From Actinomortierella ambigua (Eukaryota; Mortierellomycota; Mortierellomycetes; Mortierellales; Mortierellaceae), in contig JAAAJB010000128.1 of NCBI GenBank assembly GCA_016098155.1, forward strand, positions 1 to 64,000: 64,000 nucleotides of DNA, given 5' to 3'. The position numbers and the translations under genes are program-made. Under the pieces are notes generated by a model. It did not search any database, had not been told where the DNA came from, and saw only the letters and a list, made by a program, of their open reading frames with translations. Below, one piece after another: positions 1 to 8,033 of this stretch; within the stretch, counting starts at the first letter, position 1, and every line of letters begins with the position of its first letter.

Positions 1-3000
1 GCAGGCAAAGCCAACCATAAACTCCTTGCCGAGGTCAATTGCACCGACATCGACCTTGGTGCGGTCAGGAAAAAGCACGTTCTGCACCGACGGAAGAGGG
101 ATCGCGGTGGAAATGTTAGGCAGCAGGCGCCGGTTATCCGGTGCAAGGATGTGTTGACGTGTGTTACCAACAATGTTGGTGATAAATCGCTGTTTCGCCC
201 TCTTCCGCAAGTCGACCGCGGACAAGTAGAGCTTTCGACCATCGGTGACAATGGCGCCCCGGAGGAGATAGGACGGTAGGACATTTTGCGGTTGTCCAGG
301 TCTCAAGACGTGCGTGTCGGGAAACATCCGTTCAATAGGCGGGCGAGCATTCATCAAGATTTCACTCGAACTCGCGTTCGGTGGGTTGGGTCCGACGAGA
401 GTACTTGCCAAGGCACGCAGCTCGGCCACCGTCGCAGTAGTCGTGGTCCGAGAGAGAGGGTGGAGGTGGGCGGGAGCCAGCATGGACAGCCCCACTGGAG
501 TAACCAGCCTAGTTAGTAGCCAACCGGGGGGTTTGTCAGCCACTGTGCCGATATTGGTACCCGTAATTGTGTACAGGTACCCTTGTATGGCCGACGATCT
601 CGAAAGGTGTGCGAACAATTGGGCTTCCGAGATGTATATGGACCCGTGCCGAACCGGCGACTGCGGTAGTCGCGTTCGCAGACCGGCCATTTTGTCGATG
701 AAATACCGTCTGTACTGCACGGCCAACATGGTGCCGAGAGTGCCGATCAGGTCGGAATCCAGAATGAAATCCTGAACTTGGCCTGGACCATCCTCATAGA
801 TTATTTCTCCGATGGTTGACTCCCTGTGACGTGATCGAATTAGAAGACTCTCTCTTGTGAGACCTTCGGCGACAGCAATATAATTGCCTCGAGCCCTTCC
901 AATGACTTGGTGCTTTGTGGTGCTGGCCCTGAGGGTGCTGCTTGGATCCCGCAGGTACTTCAGAAGAGACCTGAAGAAACCACCGTGATCACCTTTTGTG
1001 CCCGTGCCGTCTTCTTCTTCTTCTGGATCGCCCGCATTCACTGCATCCTCGTTAGACGGCCCCTCGTCGCCGCCATCATCCTGAGTAGCGTCCCCAACCG
1101 TACTGCTGTTGTTGTTCCCTTCCTTGCCCATCGTCTTGCGACGCTTCAAGGCGGCAGCTCTGATGGTGTCGTCGGTCGTATCATCCTTCTTGCCTTTTTT
1201 GAAAATGAGGCTGCGGAGCTCCACCAGATCGTGCGCCGATGCCGTCGTTATATATAATGCCATGCATTTTTGTCCGTGCCGAAGGAGCTCGTTGGATACT
1301 CGCACTATGCGTCGAATTATAGCGATTGTGTCGGCCTGGGCCTGTTTGGCAAGCGAGATTTTTTGTTCGTTGGTGAGCTCATTGATGAAGTTGGCCGTCG
1401 TGATCATTTCGTCCGATATGGCTGCCGTGATCATTTCGTCCGATACGACTTGGTTGATGTTACGGCCAAGCTGGCCGACGGATAGCGTTGTCATTTGGTG
1501 CCTTCGGGTGATGAAGTCGACGTGCTTTTTCTTGTCCGTAGCATCTGCATCAGCGGGGAGAGTTGACTGGGAGGAGCGTGAGGAAGATTGCGACTTGGGA
1601 GGGACTGGTGAAACCCAAGGATAGGGTTTAAATTCGCGGAAAACGACCTGGGCAGGGACAACCGGCTGTCCTTGGACGATTGCAGTAGGCTGGGTCGGGA
1701 CCTTGTGGACTTTAATAGCGTAACGTTCCGTTTGTAAAAGGTGAAAGCCTTTGGTCTGATGCTCTTGCTTGCATTCAAGGGCTCGATCCGTCACAGCAGG
1801 ATGTCGTGCAGCGCGGCGTGCGTCTACTCTCTCCCAATGAGCTTTTTGTCTGTCTGGAAGAGCGTCAAGAGACGGTGGGCGACTGGGGGGTGCATTCCCT
1901 GGATTTGATTTGAAACGGCTGGAATTTTTTTTTAAAAAAAAATGAGAAGAGAGAGAGAGGGAGGGGGTTAGCATGCTGTCATAGTGTGATTAAGAAGGGA
2001 CTGATGATCAACCTGCCCAGTCTTACCTTGGGGTCCGGTGTTGCTGTTGAGGTTGCTGCTGAGGTCGCTGTTGCCGCTGCTGCTGCTGCCGCTGTTTAAT
2101 GAACGAGCGGCGGCGCTCGGATGCAGCCTTGATCCGTCGCTTGAGCGAGAGAACCGCCTCCATGTTGCGGCCCTCTATTTCTTGTTTCGCTTGTTTCTGC
2201 GCTTGAGAAAGCAGCTCCTCTGAACAGTACAGGTAGATGTTGGAGGACGAGGTGAAATTGACTCGTGTAACTTGAGAGTTGGGCACTGCATTCCGGATTT
2301 CGTAGGCGTCGTAGGCAGCCTCGACCTCGGGGTGTTGGACGTACCACACCAATATGCGACCCAAGCTCACTACCGGGTGTCAAAGAAGGCGTTTATTTAT
2401 TATTAGCGTGGTGGTCAGACGAGAGAAACAAGGAGAGAGAAAGAGGTTGGGGGGGGGTTGACTTACAGGAGTTGGGCATACTCTTGATGATTCTCATGTT
2501 GGTGGCAATCCCGAAGCCTGGTAGGTTCCTACTGTAGTCGGTGTTTGACACCACTAGAAGTAGCTGGAACTGCCGACGGGTGAGGCCCGCCTTACTAAGC
2601 AAGGCGTTGATATCGTACTCAACATACCTGCTGCCCCATGGCCGCAGCATTGTTTGAATAAATGGCTCCGCGCAGTAATCGACATCGTTTGCAATCACGA
2701 TGAATTGCATCCCGGAGGTGAAGGCTAGCTCTTGAGCGCGGCGGCGGATTCCGATGTCGGCCTCTCCATTGCACAGGTGGGCAATGGCTCCTGTCTGCCG
2801 AAGTTGATGGATGATTTCTTCTTTGAGGGGGTTTGTAAGGGGGGTCGATTGTCGGATCGCTGACAAGGCTTTCCGGTAGGCTGCTCTTTTAATGCCATGG
2901 CCAGTCTCAGCCCTGCGTTCCATGCTTTGGATGTTCTGTTCCGCTTCTATCAATCGTGTGCCGTTTTCCCGCCGCTCCATACTGGTATGCAATTTTTCCT

Positions 3001-3253
3001 GATTTCCGTCACCGTCTAAAAAATATTCCACGACTGTGGCGCCATCGAAGCGACGCTGTAGCCAGTCGGCTACGACTTTTGCGGTAAGGCGGATATTGTA
3101 CTGAGCCGTCGAACGAAGTGTAGAGAAAATGATGCGTTGAATTTGGTGGTGAAAAGCCCCAATATCGACCAGTAATCTAGTTGATAATGGGATATCGACT
3201 TTGGGCAGAGTTTTTGCAGACCCCAGGACGGCCAGTAATCCTGGGCCGCCCAT
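1..3253 (-). CDS. XPG/FEN1-like nuclease fused to a TnpB/Fanzor-like protein (3' end outside window)
   Basis: Three exons read in phase (3253-2467, 2369-2027, 1918-1; introns have GTAAGT or GTAAG donors and TAG or AAAG-like acceptors), giving 1016 codons with no stop at the edge. Residues 1 to about 310 form a complete FEN1/XPG-type fold: N-terminus MGGPGLL, acidic residues D30 (LLVDIGAF), D80/D82 (FLDGDG), E164/D166 (NGEADIG), D190/D192 (ANDVDY) and D239 (SNTDYS) followed by an H3TH-like GFGIA segment. A Gln-rich stretch ends near residue 376. After a charged, low-complexity part, residues of about 780-1016 resemble the stretch before RuvC-I of TnpB/Fanzor proteins, with RGAIVTDGRKLYL and then GAIDLGKEFMVGFA, where D1005 would be the first RuvC aspartate. 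Family knowledge: Fanzors are RNA-guided nucleases carried by transposons; XPG-type enzymes cut flapped DNA. The fusion and its function are inferences; RuvC-II, RuvC-III and zinc motifs lie outside the window. The ATG fits the usual MG start of XPG-N domains. Confidence 0.7.
1399..1445 (-). repeat. Two 20-bp direct repeats (27-bp period) inside the Fanzor-like gene
   Basis: An identical 20-base unit occurs at 1399-1418 and again at 1426-1445. The 27-base period keeps the reading frame and encodes the duplicated peptide SDEMIT in the linker between the nuclease domain and the TnpB-like part. It looks like a recent in-frame tandem duplication in a low-constraint helical linker. Confidence 0.8.
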
Positions 3254-3567
3254 GTGGAATATGTGAAAGAGACGTGCGAGAGAGAGGGAAGAGGAAAGGA
3301 TGAAGGACGAAAGGGAGCGAAGTTGTCAAGAAAAAGAGGAGAGCAAACGATGAAAGACAATAGAAGAAGAGAAAGACAAGAGGAGAAAGACAAGAAGAAA
3401 GGTATGTGCTGTATGCACATCATGTTGTGATGGGTACACATCTGCTGATCATGATGTGATGTGCTCCTTCCCTTTTGATGACTTTACTTGCAATCTTCCT
3501 TGGATCAATGTAGGGCAGCTACAAAAGACTTTTTTTCTGAAGAGAACTCATCCTGGAAACAATCTCC
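3254..3567. promoter_or_regulatory. Divergent intergenic region between the nuclease fusion and a small gene
   Basis: The two start codons are 314 bp apart and face away from each other. The nuclease side is strongly purine-rich on the plus strand (GAGAGAGA-type runs at about 3265-3400), i.e. a pyrimidine-rich leader in the sense of the nuclease transcript. No clear TATA element was seen. The arrangement suggests that both genes share a promoter. Confidence 0.35.
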
Positions 3568-4019
3568 ATGGAGGACAACGACGACATCTTGGGGCACGAC
3601 GACATCTTGGGCGAGGTCTTCCCCTCCTCTGCTACTGTCTCTCTTCCAGGTTATGGTATCGACACCGGCACCACTGGTACAATTTCCCGGCTCCAGGATC
3701 GCTTATAGTGAGCATGCAGCAGCTACGCCAATACCACGGATGGCATCGGCCAGCAAGAAGACACCTTCAGTGCTGTCCAGCAGGTCTGGACTACCACCGC
3801 CACGGAAGAAGTGAATATTGGCATCATAGCAGCTTCCTTAGAAGCCATCAAGAGGCTCGAAGGTTCTCAAAGCACAATCACGAGGCTGCAGGAAGACATC
3901 ACAACACCGCAGCTTGGGGGAGGGGGTTAGAAAAATCCCCTTTTTTTGTACAAACGAATACTTGACTTTTGTTTTTTTTAGGCCTACGGGAACAAGCTAA
4001 TATCTACACTGTCCGTTGA
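3568..4019 (+). CDS. Small acidic hypothetical protein, divergent from the nuclease fusion
   Basis: Not a family I recognise. Exons 3568-3649, 3713-3925 and 3982-4019 join in phase to a 110-residue protein starting MEDNDDILGHDDILGE. The first intron is 63 bp and removes in-frame TAG and TGA; its acceptor is the weak point. The second has a CTTGAC branch-like site and a T-rich tract before AG. The middle of the protein (IIAASLEAIKRLEGSQ and following) reads as a short amphipathic coiled coil. It has no membrane segment or zinc motif. Its position directly divergent from the XPG/Fanzor-like gene hints at membership of the same mobile unit, but that is inference. If the introns are wrong this is a decayed ORF. 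Confidence 0.35.
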
Positions 4020-4332
4020 ATAAAGCATAACATATGACACTCTGACTACACTGTGCAACAAAAGCAGCAGCTCACTCTATACTCAACCCATGTGCTTACA
4101 ATATGTTCTGTTCTGAAAGAACCAAGGGCAGGTACAGGAGACTATGTAGCCTCTCTTGGCCTAATGATATGTGATTCTGATGGTGTACCGTGGAAACTGT
4201 GAGCCTTGGAACGACTCAACTGACATCTCGCCTCTCTACTCCTTCACATCGGCAAATACGATAATGCATTTCTCCGAGCAGCCTTTGCTAGCTCGCCTTT
4301 CCAAGTGGGTCTGAGCTTCCAGCCGCTGTCCA
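4020..4332. other. Intergenic, no feature seen
   Basis: AT-balanced sequence with stops in all frames. It holds nothing that I can support beyond the probable 3' end of the small upstream gene. Confidence 0.4.
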
Positions 4333-4545
4333 CTAGCGATTGCTTCTGTCGTAGAAGCTCGACCCACATTTCGCCAGCTCTGGATCACAGTCCTTCTTGA
4401 ACTCGGGGACTGCACCGTACGGGAGAATGCACATCACATGGTCGGGTCTTCTTTTCTGCCTGTCCTTGAAGAAGTGTCTGTTGAGAGTATTGTGCCAAGA
4501 TTCAATCAGGTTGTTAGTGTCAGTCGAGTCGGTCGCGGAGCCTTG
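4333..4545 (-). pseudogene. Fragment of a MULE-type transposase
   Basis: A short minus-strand segment encodes TNNLIESWHNTLNRHFF followed by a basic KDRQKRRPD stretch. This resembles the segment after the catalytic core of MULE/SWIM-type transposases, where the usual pattern is TNN(Y/L)xESWHxxLK followed by RRxD. Residues before this segment (a Pro-rich stretch from about 4546 up) do not continue the family and no DDE residues are present, so it is a remnant. It supports the view that 1-5 kb is transposon-rich. Confidence 0.45.
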
Positions 4546-5257
4546 ACGAAAACAAAGAGGTGGAGGCGGCGCGAGGGGTAGGGGCGACAGCGTTAGCACT
4601 GGAGGTACTCGCTCTACTGTAGCGGCCATCGCTACCACATCATCCTACACCATCTGGTTCTATCTCCCACACCATGGGTCACGATGAGGCACGTACCCGA
4701 GATCAATGCTCCAATAGAGCCAGATGACGACTTTGATCGATATCACGACATCGCTGGATCCTTTGACCAAAGTCGATGGCCTGTTCCAAGTGAGAACTGG
4801 ATGGCCTTGCACTACCTCTGCCTCTTGCGCAACCTAGACCATGATCGACAGCGGCAGCGACCTGGGTAGACGTGGATACCACAGTGGGTTCTACAGAAGC
4901 AATGGAGCACTCAGTATTCTACAAAGCCTTACCTTAACGAGGGTGGTTTCCATAGCTGCAACGAGCTGTGTCGGAGGGGTAGAAGGGCGTGGTACATGTT
5001 CTGAGCGCGACTCGGTTTCTGACTCGGCTGTGTCCCCTTCAGTTTCCGTTTCTCCATCTGTAAGGGTGGTTTCGTCAGGGACGGGAAAAGGAAAGAAGTT
5101 GGTAGTGGAAAGTGGCATGAAGGGGCGTTTCTCAGAGGAAAGGCTGGAATGGTGTACCCGACCCTTCCGTGACTGTCACTGGCTCGATGTCGAAACTGAC
5201 AAAAAAAAGGGGAGAGGGGGGACAGCACTCTTCATCGTCACCATTCATTGTTTAGCC
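4546..5257. other. Intergenic upstream of UBA2, possibly transposon debris
   Basis: Short open stretches occur on both strands, including an acidic plus-strand one at 4684-4869, but none has a recognisable motif or credible splice structure. The last 100-150 bp should hold the UBA2 promoter and leader. Confidence 0.3.
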
Positions 5258-8033
5258 ATGTCGCGCGAAGATTACTTGAAGCGAACTATCGGGGGATCCC
5301 TCGTACAAAACATCGCTCAAGCGCGCGTGCTCATGGTGGGCGCTGGCGGCATTGGATGCGAATTACTCAAGAATCTCGTTATGAGTGGTTTCAAGAATAT
5401 CGAAGTTGTGAGTGAGTCGTTCCTTCGCCCCCCCCCCCCTGTATCGAAGGCGCTGAGATCAACAGAGACCGAGAGGCACTGTTTTTCTATTTTGTGTTGA
5501 ATATTCACCAAGAGGTTGTCGCTCTCTCACACTTTTTTTTTCTCTCTTTGTTCACCACCTAGATTGACCTGGATACAATTGACCTCTCCAATCTCAACCG
5601 CCAGTTTCTCTTCCAGAAGCAGCATGTCAAAAAGTCAAAGGCGCATGTATGTGAACGTGAGACCAGCTTGAAATGCTTTGTACGACTTTTTTACCACATG
5701 AAATCGACTATGGTTCTAGGTTTTCTCACTGAGTGCGACACATTGGCTCCTCCTTACCTCCTGCACTGGACCTGAGTAGATAGCAAAGGCCTCAGCACTC
5801 GCATTCAACCCTTCAGTCAATGTCGTGTCGCGGCACCAAAACATCAAGGAGCACGAGTTCACGGTCGAGTGGTTTAGAGGGTTTGATCTGGTCATGAATG
5901 CCTTGGATAACCTGGGTATGACATGCTCTGTTGTTGCTTGTGCACCAATTTGGTCGTTTTGCAATCACGCTTGGTGGCCCACCGTTGATATTGACAATAT
6001 GGTTTTTGTACGTTCATTGTAGATGCCCGACGACATGTCAACAAAATGTGCTTGGCTGCCAATGTGCCGTTAATTGAGTCGGGAACAGCGGGCTACCTTG
6101 GCCAAGTCACTGTGATCAAGAAGGAGGTTACTGAATGCTTTGATTGCCAGCCTAAAGAAACTCCAAAGACGTTTCCAGTCTGCACCATCCGAAGTACCCC
6201 CTCAGCCCCAATCCATTGTATTGTCTGGGCAAAGAGCTATCTTTTTGGTCAGCTACTTGGCAATTCGGAGGAGGATGATGATGAAGTCATATCCAAGGAT
6301 GAGGCGGATGGCGAAACTGGTAAGAGTGTCCTCTGGTGGATTGGTCTTGTGGTGTTACGGCCATCCAAGCTACGCGCATGTGGTGCACTATGATCCTCCC
6401 TCTCTAACTTGATGTATTGTGATCGCGTTTGGAATGGATGCGTGTTTAGCCAAAGAGCTGGCCGCGTTAGCAGCAGAGTCGCAGGCTCTCAAAGCTATTC
6501 TAGAGACAGCCAACACGGATGGTTTTGCCGAGCGTGTTTTCGACAAGGTCTTTTATGCGGATGTTGTCCGACTGCGGTCAATGGAGGAAATGTGGAAGAC
6601 AAGAAAACCTCCGGTTCCCTTGAAGTACATGGACGCAGTCAAGTCATCAAAGGCTGAGGAAGTTGCATCGAGCGATCCAGCGATAACATGTGTGGACTCG
6701 ATATCGGCAGCAGGAAGCAATGGATCAGGCGGAGATAATGTATCGGGTAGCACGCTCAAAGATCAACGTCAGTGGTCTCTACGTGAGAATGCCCAGATCT
6801 TTTGCCAGAGTCTAGAGACATTGACAACACGGCTACAGCAGATGCGCGAATCTGATCCATCTGTGAGCATTCAGTTTGACAAGGATGACCCCGACTCGCT
6901 GGATTTTGTCACGGCAACCTCCAACCTTCGCGCCCATATCTTTGGAATCGAGGAAAAGAGCCGATTTCAGGTGAAAGGTAAAGAGTCATTTTTCTTTGCG
7001 TGTTCTAGTTCTCGTCTTCTGCCATGTGGCCTTCTCGATACTCACCAATCCGTCTTTTCTTTTTCTTCTCTCTCTCCCCCTTTTTGTTATTTTTTAGCCA
7101 TGGCGGGTAATATCATACCAGCGATCGCCACTACCAACGCCATTATTGCTGGAATGATGGTCATGGCGGCATTTAAGATCCTCAGCAACAAGCTAGTCGA
7201 GTGCAAAACTGTATGTGGCTCTCTGCGGCAACATGTGTGCGTGTTTTTTTTTTGGCTTGTACTTTTAATCTTTTACTCACGAATATCGTTTCAACCTTTT
7301 GATGTTTTCAGGGATACCTGGCGTACGGCCGTAACCGACCGAAGCTAATCATCCAAGAACCTCTGGCTAAGCCCAATCCCAGATGCTATGTCTGCCGAAA
7401 CACCTTTCTCGATCTGCGAATCAATGCCGATAAATTTACCGTCAAGAACCTGGTCAATGTTCTGCAAGAGAATGGAATGGAAGAGGTTGAGATACAAGAA
7501 AATGGAAGGTAAACTTATTGCACATGGAAAGGTTCAACAAGCGGGCAATAGACTGACGCTCTTATCCAATAGTACTCATTCTTTTCGCCATGTATACTAC
7601 CCCCATTTCTACTAGGTTGCTCTACGATGTCGAGTTTGAAGACAACCTAGAAACAGCGCTGGCCAAGCTGGGCGTGACGGATGAAAAGCTGCTTGAGGTG
7701 CTTGACGATGAAGACCACAAAGTCGTGCTCCGTATTCTCCAAACGGATGACCAACAACTGGATGGTAAGCCCTATATCTTGGAGGGCGATCTCGTACAGG
7801 CTCTTCGGCAAGTGGTGGCCGAAGGGACTGAAGATGAGGTGAATGTCGCTAACGAGGGTGACACCATGATGAGCGAAGCATCCAACGACAAGAAGCGCAA
7901 GCTAGAGTCAGTCGTCGATCCGAACGACTCGTCTGTTCCGCAAAAGAAACAGGCGCCTGAAGAGGATGCCATCGACGTGGACGAGGTCGTCGTAATGAAC
8001 GGTGAGGTGTATGATCTTATTCTCCTGGACTGA
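5258..8033 (+). CDS. UBA2: SUMO-activating enzyme subunit 2 (Uba2)
   Basis: Catalytic subunit of the heterodimeric SUMO E1, which adenylates SUMO and carries it as a thioester before passing it to Ubc9 in the nucleus. Exons 5258-5407, 5563-5646, 5780-5915, 6023-6319, 6450-6977, 7098-7210, 7312-7508 and 7616-8033 join to 640 residues, the usual family length. Visible: nucleotide-binding [14 protein letters not shown] near residue 27; [11 protein letters not shown]; active-site Cys in [20 protein letters not shown]; zinc ligands CFDC and CYVC; conserved [17 protein letters not shown]; a C-terminal ubiquitin-fold part ending in an acidic tail with a nuclear-signal-like KKRKLE and hydrophobic-acidic DVDEVVVM, like a SUMO-interacting motif. 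All key residues are present. The start ATG begins the conserved [12 protein letters not shown] block. Confidence 0.95.

Follow-up and report, generated by a model that had tools for sequence, protein, structure and literature searches.

A predicted fusion of an XPG/FEN1-type nuclease and a Fanzor1-like nuclease in a mobile element of Mortierellaceae fungi

At one end of a contig of Actinomortierella ambigua (placed in Mortierellaceae, Fungi incertae sedis), a gene appears to begin as an XPG-type nuclease and to continue as a Fanzor-type nuclease. This raises the question of whether one protein contains both enzymes and, if so, what such a combination could do for the DNA that carries it. The window analyzed here comprises bases 1-64000 of contig C33 (64,927 bp), which belongs to a 33.8-Mb genome of 846 contigs. 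The predicted protein almost certainly consists of an N-terminal XPG/Rad2-superfamily nuclease followed by a Fanzor1-like RuvC nuclease; its gene is borne by a mobile element of Mortierellaceae fungi, and roughly the initial three quarters of it lie in the window.

A gene with two nuclease halves at the contig edge

The gene is encoded by the minus strand from 3253 downwards; its spliced frame is free of stops for 1016 codons and reaches base 1, where the contig physically ends. Exon 1 (2468-3253; residues 1-262) encodes an XPG/FEN1/EXO1-type nuclease domain, assigned by family profile and fold, and a predicted phase-1 intron (2370-2466; GT..AG, 97 bp) lies directly 3' of this domain. Exon 2 (2027-2369; residues 263-377) covers the stretch between the halves, with a Gln/Arg-rich run at its end, and a second predicted intron (1919-2026; GT..AG, 108 bp, phase 2) separates it from exon 3 (1-1918; residues 377-1016), which is open at the contig end and encodes the linker and the Fanzor half as far as RuvC-I. 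Within exon 3, the conserved motif LLRGAIVTDG (238-267; residues 928-937) precedes the RuvC-I motif GAIDLGKEF (19-45; residues 1002-1010), all on the minus strand. The candidate catalytic Asp of this motif, D1005 (36-34), occupies a column that is kept in relatives and is the only Fanzor catalytic residue within reach in the window. Two in-phase spliced junctions followed by an open frame ending in a RuvC-I stretch, as read in the initial annotation, were recovered in this gene model with its predicted introns.

Exon 1 contains the full set of seven two-metal-site carboxylates, all where the initial annotation had placed its FEN1-type acidic residues (minus strand): D30 (3166-3164), D80 (3016-3014), E164 (2764-2762), D166 (2758-2756), D190 (2686-2684), D192 (2680-2678) and D239 (2539-2537). 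Relatives were needed for a firmer assignment, because the window protein by itself is too divergent for Pfam, where a scan of it gave no match, and its PDB matches, to Rad2 and archaeal FEN proteins mixed with unrelated ones, are all sub-threshold. In 60 aligned XPG halves (the window and 59 relatives), the rows that bear a residue at the position keep D30 in 37/39, D80 in 44/44, E164 in 54/54, D166 in 55/56, D190 in 51/55, D192 in 53/54 and D239 in 55/56. The Pfam model XPG_I (cut-off 24.9 bits) matches P0017 (25.2) and P0078 (28.1) above its cut-off and P0008 (22.6), P0075 (23.5) and P0010 (23.5) narrowly under it, with weaker or absent matches in other relatives; precomputed database Pfam entries assign XPG_I to P0017, P0054, P0075 and P0078. 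Matches to the fen_arch and rad2 models fall far under their cut-offs, and the A1 profile found chance matches only in the PDB.

The predicted structure of exon 1 is nearest to EXO1 and FEN1, and the XPG half has a PIN-like fold with an I region and H2TH. It shares its fold, the seven carboxylates, the I region and a pre-H2TH motif with EXO1, FEN1, Rad2/XPG and GEN1, and it differs from them in sequence (12-21% identity among the 50 structure matches listed), in being joined to a Fanzor-type nuclease and in being borne by a mobile element. A chance resemblance to XPG nucleases is ruled out by profile and fold. The half also resembles, more weakly, XRN1 (E 8.6e-4) and Rat1 (E 1.7e-2), which would suit a role on RNA, in which it mainly trims or matures a guide RNA or cuts RNA-DNA hybrids rather than DNA ends; since its closest folds and profiles are those of the DNA nucleases EXO1, FEN1, XPG/Rad2 and GEN1, we consider such a role improbable. 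We instead read the XPG half as a predicted nuclease of the 5' flap or 5' exonuclease type. Known activities of EXO1 and FEN1 are the degradation of 5' ends and the cleavage of 5' flaps.

Relatives, domain order and age of the fusion

The part beyond the contig edge can be followed in a paralogue on contig C471, L039. This locus runs from an MG.. start through an XPG-type region (TEADVRIAAE, SCDSDLLFY, LSDNDYVPNIPH) and a linker to YLGIDLGQAF, VVIGIGMGDF and VEEYYTSKKCPTC...YCGTC...MHRDV. We take these last three to be RuvC-I, a RuvC-II region that lacks the canonical Glu, and a Glu ahead of a zinc ribbon followed by the ribbon and RuvC-III, names that were checked against the family alignment. 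L039 is the one nearly full-length paralogue, its XPG half is broken by two stops and one frameshift, and one later exon junction is uncertain; the A. ambigua protein P0005 matches the locus at 91.8-100% per segment. The TNB domain (PF07282) occurs at 18 places in the same genome, 17 of them above cut-off; on C471 and C72 these places follow XPG-type matches downstream on the same strand. TNB is also present in relatives (for example P0006, E 1.7e-13), and the window stops short of this region.

Among 96 Fanzor halves, the rows that bear a residue keep the RuvC-I Asp in 88/88, a Glu just before the ribbon in 59/68, the four ribbon cysteines in 64/68, 62/67, 60/64 and 66/69, and the RuvC-III Asp in 64/66. 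The initial annotation had asked for the missing RuvC parts beyond the edge, and the relatives supply a four-Cys ribbon, the RuvC-III Asp and the pre-ribbon Glu; the canonical RuvC-II Glu is not among them, its position being Gly or Ala in 83/84 (Gly 65, Ala 18, Leu 1). The available text of PMC11423790 places a catalytic Glu of Fz, TnpB and Cas12a in the loop that joins the fifth strand to the TNB domain, and the aligned pre-ribbon Glu of the family fits this arrangement. Fanzor1 proteins (SpuFz1, GtFz1, PpFz1) have the same RuvC-I Asp, pre-ribbon Glu, four-Cys TNB and RuvC-III Asp, to which the family adds a complete N-terminal XPG/FEN1-type nuclease. A profile of eight Fanzor halves (A7) found SpuFz1 (8gkh, E 4.8e-4) as its best PDB match, and P0004 alone found two unrelated proteins and the Guillardia Fanzor1 at E 0.24. 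In the structural comparison envisaged for both halves, exon 1 gave fold matches and the Fanzor half this profile match to SpuFz1, its AlphaFold model (pLDDT 45) being too poor for a fold search.

Three protein searches (E <= 0.01) returned at least 4, 22 and 92 proteins, at least 110 of them distinct; the totals are lower bounds since each search scored the 8000 candidates sharing most words. The named-species matches belong to genera of Mortierellaceae, with the single exception of P0107 (Umbelopsis ramanniana). Among the 110 proteins, 59 have an XPG half, 96 a Fanzor half and 45 both, and the XPG half stands ahead of the Fanzor half in all 45, so that the homologs sought, with an identical domain order, are present in many Mortierellaceae. 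An XPG half in the new matches of the third search is an independent test, because its words and scoring were drawn from part of the Fanzor half alone; it was found in 36 of 84 new proteins and in 34 of the 43 with at least 900 residues. Profile training included some of P0001-P0026 and none of these 84. Several of the nine long new proteins without an XPG half are marked partial or start within the linker, as judged by eye; in P0031 the first residues still belong to the end of the XPG domain (E 3e-4), and in P0110 the Fanzor match opens the protein.

In 17 predicted proteins, representing roughly a dozen species or strains, all 14 checked residues are intact. P0078 matches models for both halves, XPG_I with E 2.7e-6 (above the Pfam cut-off) and TNB with E 7.9e-14 (52 bits), and P0046 matches guided_TnpB (E 1.5e-9) and fen_arch (E 5.9e-5), both under the strict NCBIfam cut-offs. 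The proteins nearest to the window, P0001-P0004, tile the gene, none of them covering both complete halves. Between the XPG and Fanzor matches lies a gap with a median of 495 residues, which, we infer, must contain the linker and the pre-RuvC part of the Fanzor half. The intact sites of relatives, together with the constant domain order, support the original proposal of one gene with two nucleases.

A merger of two adjacent genes by gene prediction could also produce such a protein, and some related gene models are indeed truncated. One, P0090 (Linnemannia hyalina, 1239 aa), has another N-terminus in place of the XPG half ahead of its Fanzor half and is possibly a merged gene model. Such a merger would have to coexist with a window frame that is open across two predicted introns, with an intron in the divergent paralogue L039 whose position, placed by eye, coincides with the phase-1 window intron after the XPG domain, and with a middle stretch that is conserved inside each subfamily and partly alignable between subfamilies. 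Two separate genes are unlikely given 45 of 45 proteins in the same order, and we regard the merger as very improbable. The single fused gene is the reading that we retain.

P0107 (791 aa) has a Fanzor half with TNB (E 1.6e-11) and no XPG half, which makes it a candidate for the unfused state. Scans with one or two short peptide patterns each, a weak test, detected no relative in viral contigs (A2 and A7 patterns) or in genome contigs (A2 patterns), and a DNA search of plasmids gave no match.

To compare the histories of the halves, we used the 35 of 45 two-half proteins that were long enough. Their XPG-half and Fanzor-half distances correlate (Mantel r 0.60; 0/2000 permutations as high); 8 of 17 supported XPG-half splits nevertheless contradict a supported Fanzor-half split, which points to some exchange, gene-model error or noise as well. 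In a Fanzor-half tree of 86 of the 96 halves, rooted on Umbelopsis, fused forms are scattered, and the deepest branch consists of P0003 and P0004, which are alignable with the window subfamily. These two have no XPG half, P0004 being partial and P0003 beginning in the linker; all or part of it is present in sequences related to them, namely the window, P0001 and P0002. The dN/dS of the XPG half is 0.18 between the window and L034 (with dS saturated) and 0.45 between the window and L036, and L039 versus L041 gave 0.50 for the XPG half and 0.51 for the Fanzor half. It is below 1 in both halves for the computable pairs, two pairs having yielded no value, and the inclusion of decayed copies would raise these numbers. 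Judged by trees, distances and substitution rates, the fusion is old and co-inherited.

A dispersed element with defined ends

Within its own genome, the gene has 37 matches (including the window's own three), many of them with stops. Searches with P0007 and P0008 gave at least 46 matches (35 of 148 candidates scored) and at least 48 matches (35 of 152 candidates scored), respectively. Most matches look broken or partial, and they are dispersed.

On the 5' side, C838 and C127 become homologous to the window at 4080-4083, which sets a common 5' terminus near 4083. The non-coding 5' part of the element spans 3254-4083 (minus strand), with 66.6% identity to C838 over 3101-4080; in this 830 bp, several frames are similarly conserved, and an informal look for a coding ORF gave no clear coding signal. 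Beyond the terminus, window 4300-4087 (minus strand) matches copies of another repeat on C687, C512 and C326 at 90-93%. This flanking repeat has a SWIM-like CxC..CxH translation, and its SWIM and MULE labels are ones that we presume by eye and from general knowledge. On C687 and C512 the repeat continues, alike in both, where the window switches to element sequence; the element therefore sits inside a copy of the flanking repeat, since those copies run uninterrupted at the junction. The 5' terminal motif occurs at three places (C838, C33 and C127; control 0), and no common 5' start was resolved among the copies L038, L040 and L047. A Pfam search of the neighboring ORF at 4333-4644 found nothing. 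Also beside the element, on the plus strand at 5165-5450, lies a ThiF/E1-type adenylation domain (PF00899, E 1.1e-10), which by eye opens a UBA2-like SUMO-activating gene.

Copies nearer other subfamilies supplied the 3' end; that of the window falls outside the contig. A 29-base terminus occurs at nine places (reversed control 0), past which the sequences diverge immediately. A search with the C326 tail extends into the coding sequence immediately upstream at seven of these termini and little or not at all at C815 and C339. Two short stretches, C797:2627-3269 and C409:25026-25619, hold a window-like 5' region (70-73%) and the 3' tail within ~650 bp; most of the coding part is absent, as in non-autonomous or 'ghost' copies, and they are apparently internally deleted copies. 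With stretches from both end regions, they would also connect this 3' terminus with the type of element seen in the window. Taken together, these sequences indicate a family that is dispersed, multicopy and mostly decayed, with defined ends, and whose carrier is a mobile element.

Four of the nine 3' termini adjoin the start of a Crinkler-type gene: L059 (C118), labeled by PF20147 (E 1.3e-26), and L062 (C409), L065 (C797) and L067 (C168), labeled by DNA alignment. The other five 3' flanks have no visible similarity. The adjacency may go back to a duplication common to these copies or to preferential insertion upstream of Crinkler genes. It would also suit a fusion co-opted as a host or element defense nuclease against foreign DNA, as would the size and diversity of the family (92 proteins in the third search); the decayed and dispersed state of its copies, in the fashion of a mobile element, speaks against this, and we give defense little credence.

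A different reading assigns the XPG half to the movement of the element, where it would act on flaps, hairpin ends or branch points of excision or replication, with the Fanzor half as a separate retention nuclease. The conserved 5' and 3' termini are not mutual inverted copies, short copies retain parts of both end regions, and a non-systematic inspection recognized no transposase gene, all of which favor a part in movement. A search of seven loci for terminal inverted repeats found pairs of at least 20 bp only in L036 and L035, where they are GA-rich or poly-T stretches. To our knowledge, no transposase chemistry has an XPG-type nuclease as its strand-transfer enzyme, and a transposase elsewhere could act in trans; we consider this reading unlikely and prefer guided cutting coupled to end processing, as set out below.

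A proposed coupling of guided cutting to end processing

In our preferred account, an RNA made from the 3' end of the element would guide the Fanzor half, which would open an R-loop and cut the matching locus, probably an empty site or an element-less allele. The tethered XPG half would then cut the junction between single and double strand or degrade the 5' strands, producing 3' tails, and repair would be diverted from end joining to homologous copying of the element, a homing-like form of retention. We put the probability of the whole account, from a fusion in a mobile element through a guided cut and XPG resection or flap trimming to homologous copying, at about 50%. From the two halves we infer a putative RNA-guided cutting combined with end processing. 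A bolder version, to which we would give somewhat less than even odds, is that the family represents a natural, anciently fused RNA-guided exonuclease, which finds its site, cuts it and resects the 5' ends itself, is coupled to homologous copying and was kept as a mobile-element strategy through the Mortierellaceae radiation.

RNA-guided nucleases of the TnpB, Fanzor and Cas12 type are generally regarded as leaving the processing of their ends to the repair machinery of the host. The natural fusion of a Fanzor with an EXO1/FEN1-type nuclease points to an evolutionary coupling of guided cutting with end processing, one that genome engineers have made by hand. Within the available text of these sources, an EXO1-based editor increases homology-directed repair (PMC11107001), and T5exo-ErCas12a has been built (PMC8945719). 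EXO1-Cas9 and T5exo-ErCas12a likewise combine a nuclease of the FEN/EXO1 superfamily with an RNA-guided nuclease; they are man-made, whereas the Mortierellaceae fusion is natural and involves a TnpB/Cas12 relative.

Fanzor1 itself is already known, and what appears to be new here is the XPG-type nuclease on it. Like the present family, Fanzor1 is carried by mobile elements in fungi, according to the available parts of PMC3627910 and PMC10432273, and the latter describes Fanzor proteins as cutting DNA under RNA guidance and proposes that they aid the spread of their elements. The MCi-2 and MuDr-like elements of Mucoromycota (Bao and Jurka 2013, PMC3627910) are also multicopy fungal Fanzor1 elements; in the portion of that paper available, MCi-2 copies have a nearly identical 3' part and differ in their 5' part, and no nuclease fusion is reported. 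MuDr-like elements have TIRs and 9-bp TSDs in the same account (PMC3627910), whereas no TIRs were seen here. The literature searched on Fanzor, TnpB, XPG/FEN1 and Mortierella, as far as its text was available, held no description of a Fanzor-XPG fusion, in agreement with the initial annotation, which knew of none. With the fusion, the question of what a Fanzor contributes to its element can be put to a direct test (is recombinational copying promoted by guided cutting?), and the family offers ready-made two-nuclease enzymes for assay.

The conserved 3' terminus at nine places is where a putative guide (omega) RNA would be expected. RNA folding of the 3'-terminal region in three copies was not significant (z -1.5, -0.4, 0.5), and compensatory changes were seen in 0/14 pairs of this region. 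The 3' terminus on C326 (L052:1970-2040) contains an 8-bp perfect inverted repeat, CTATTGTG/CACAATAG, within a larger imperfect palindrome, and the other 3' termini keep this type of inverted repeat in part only.
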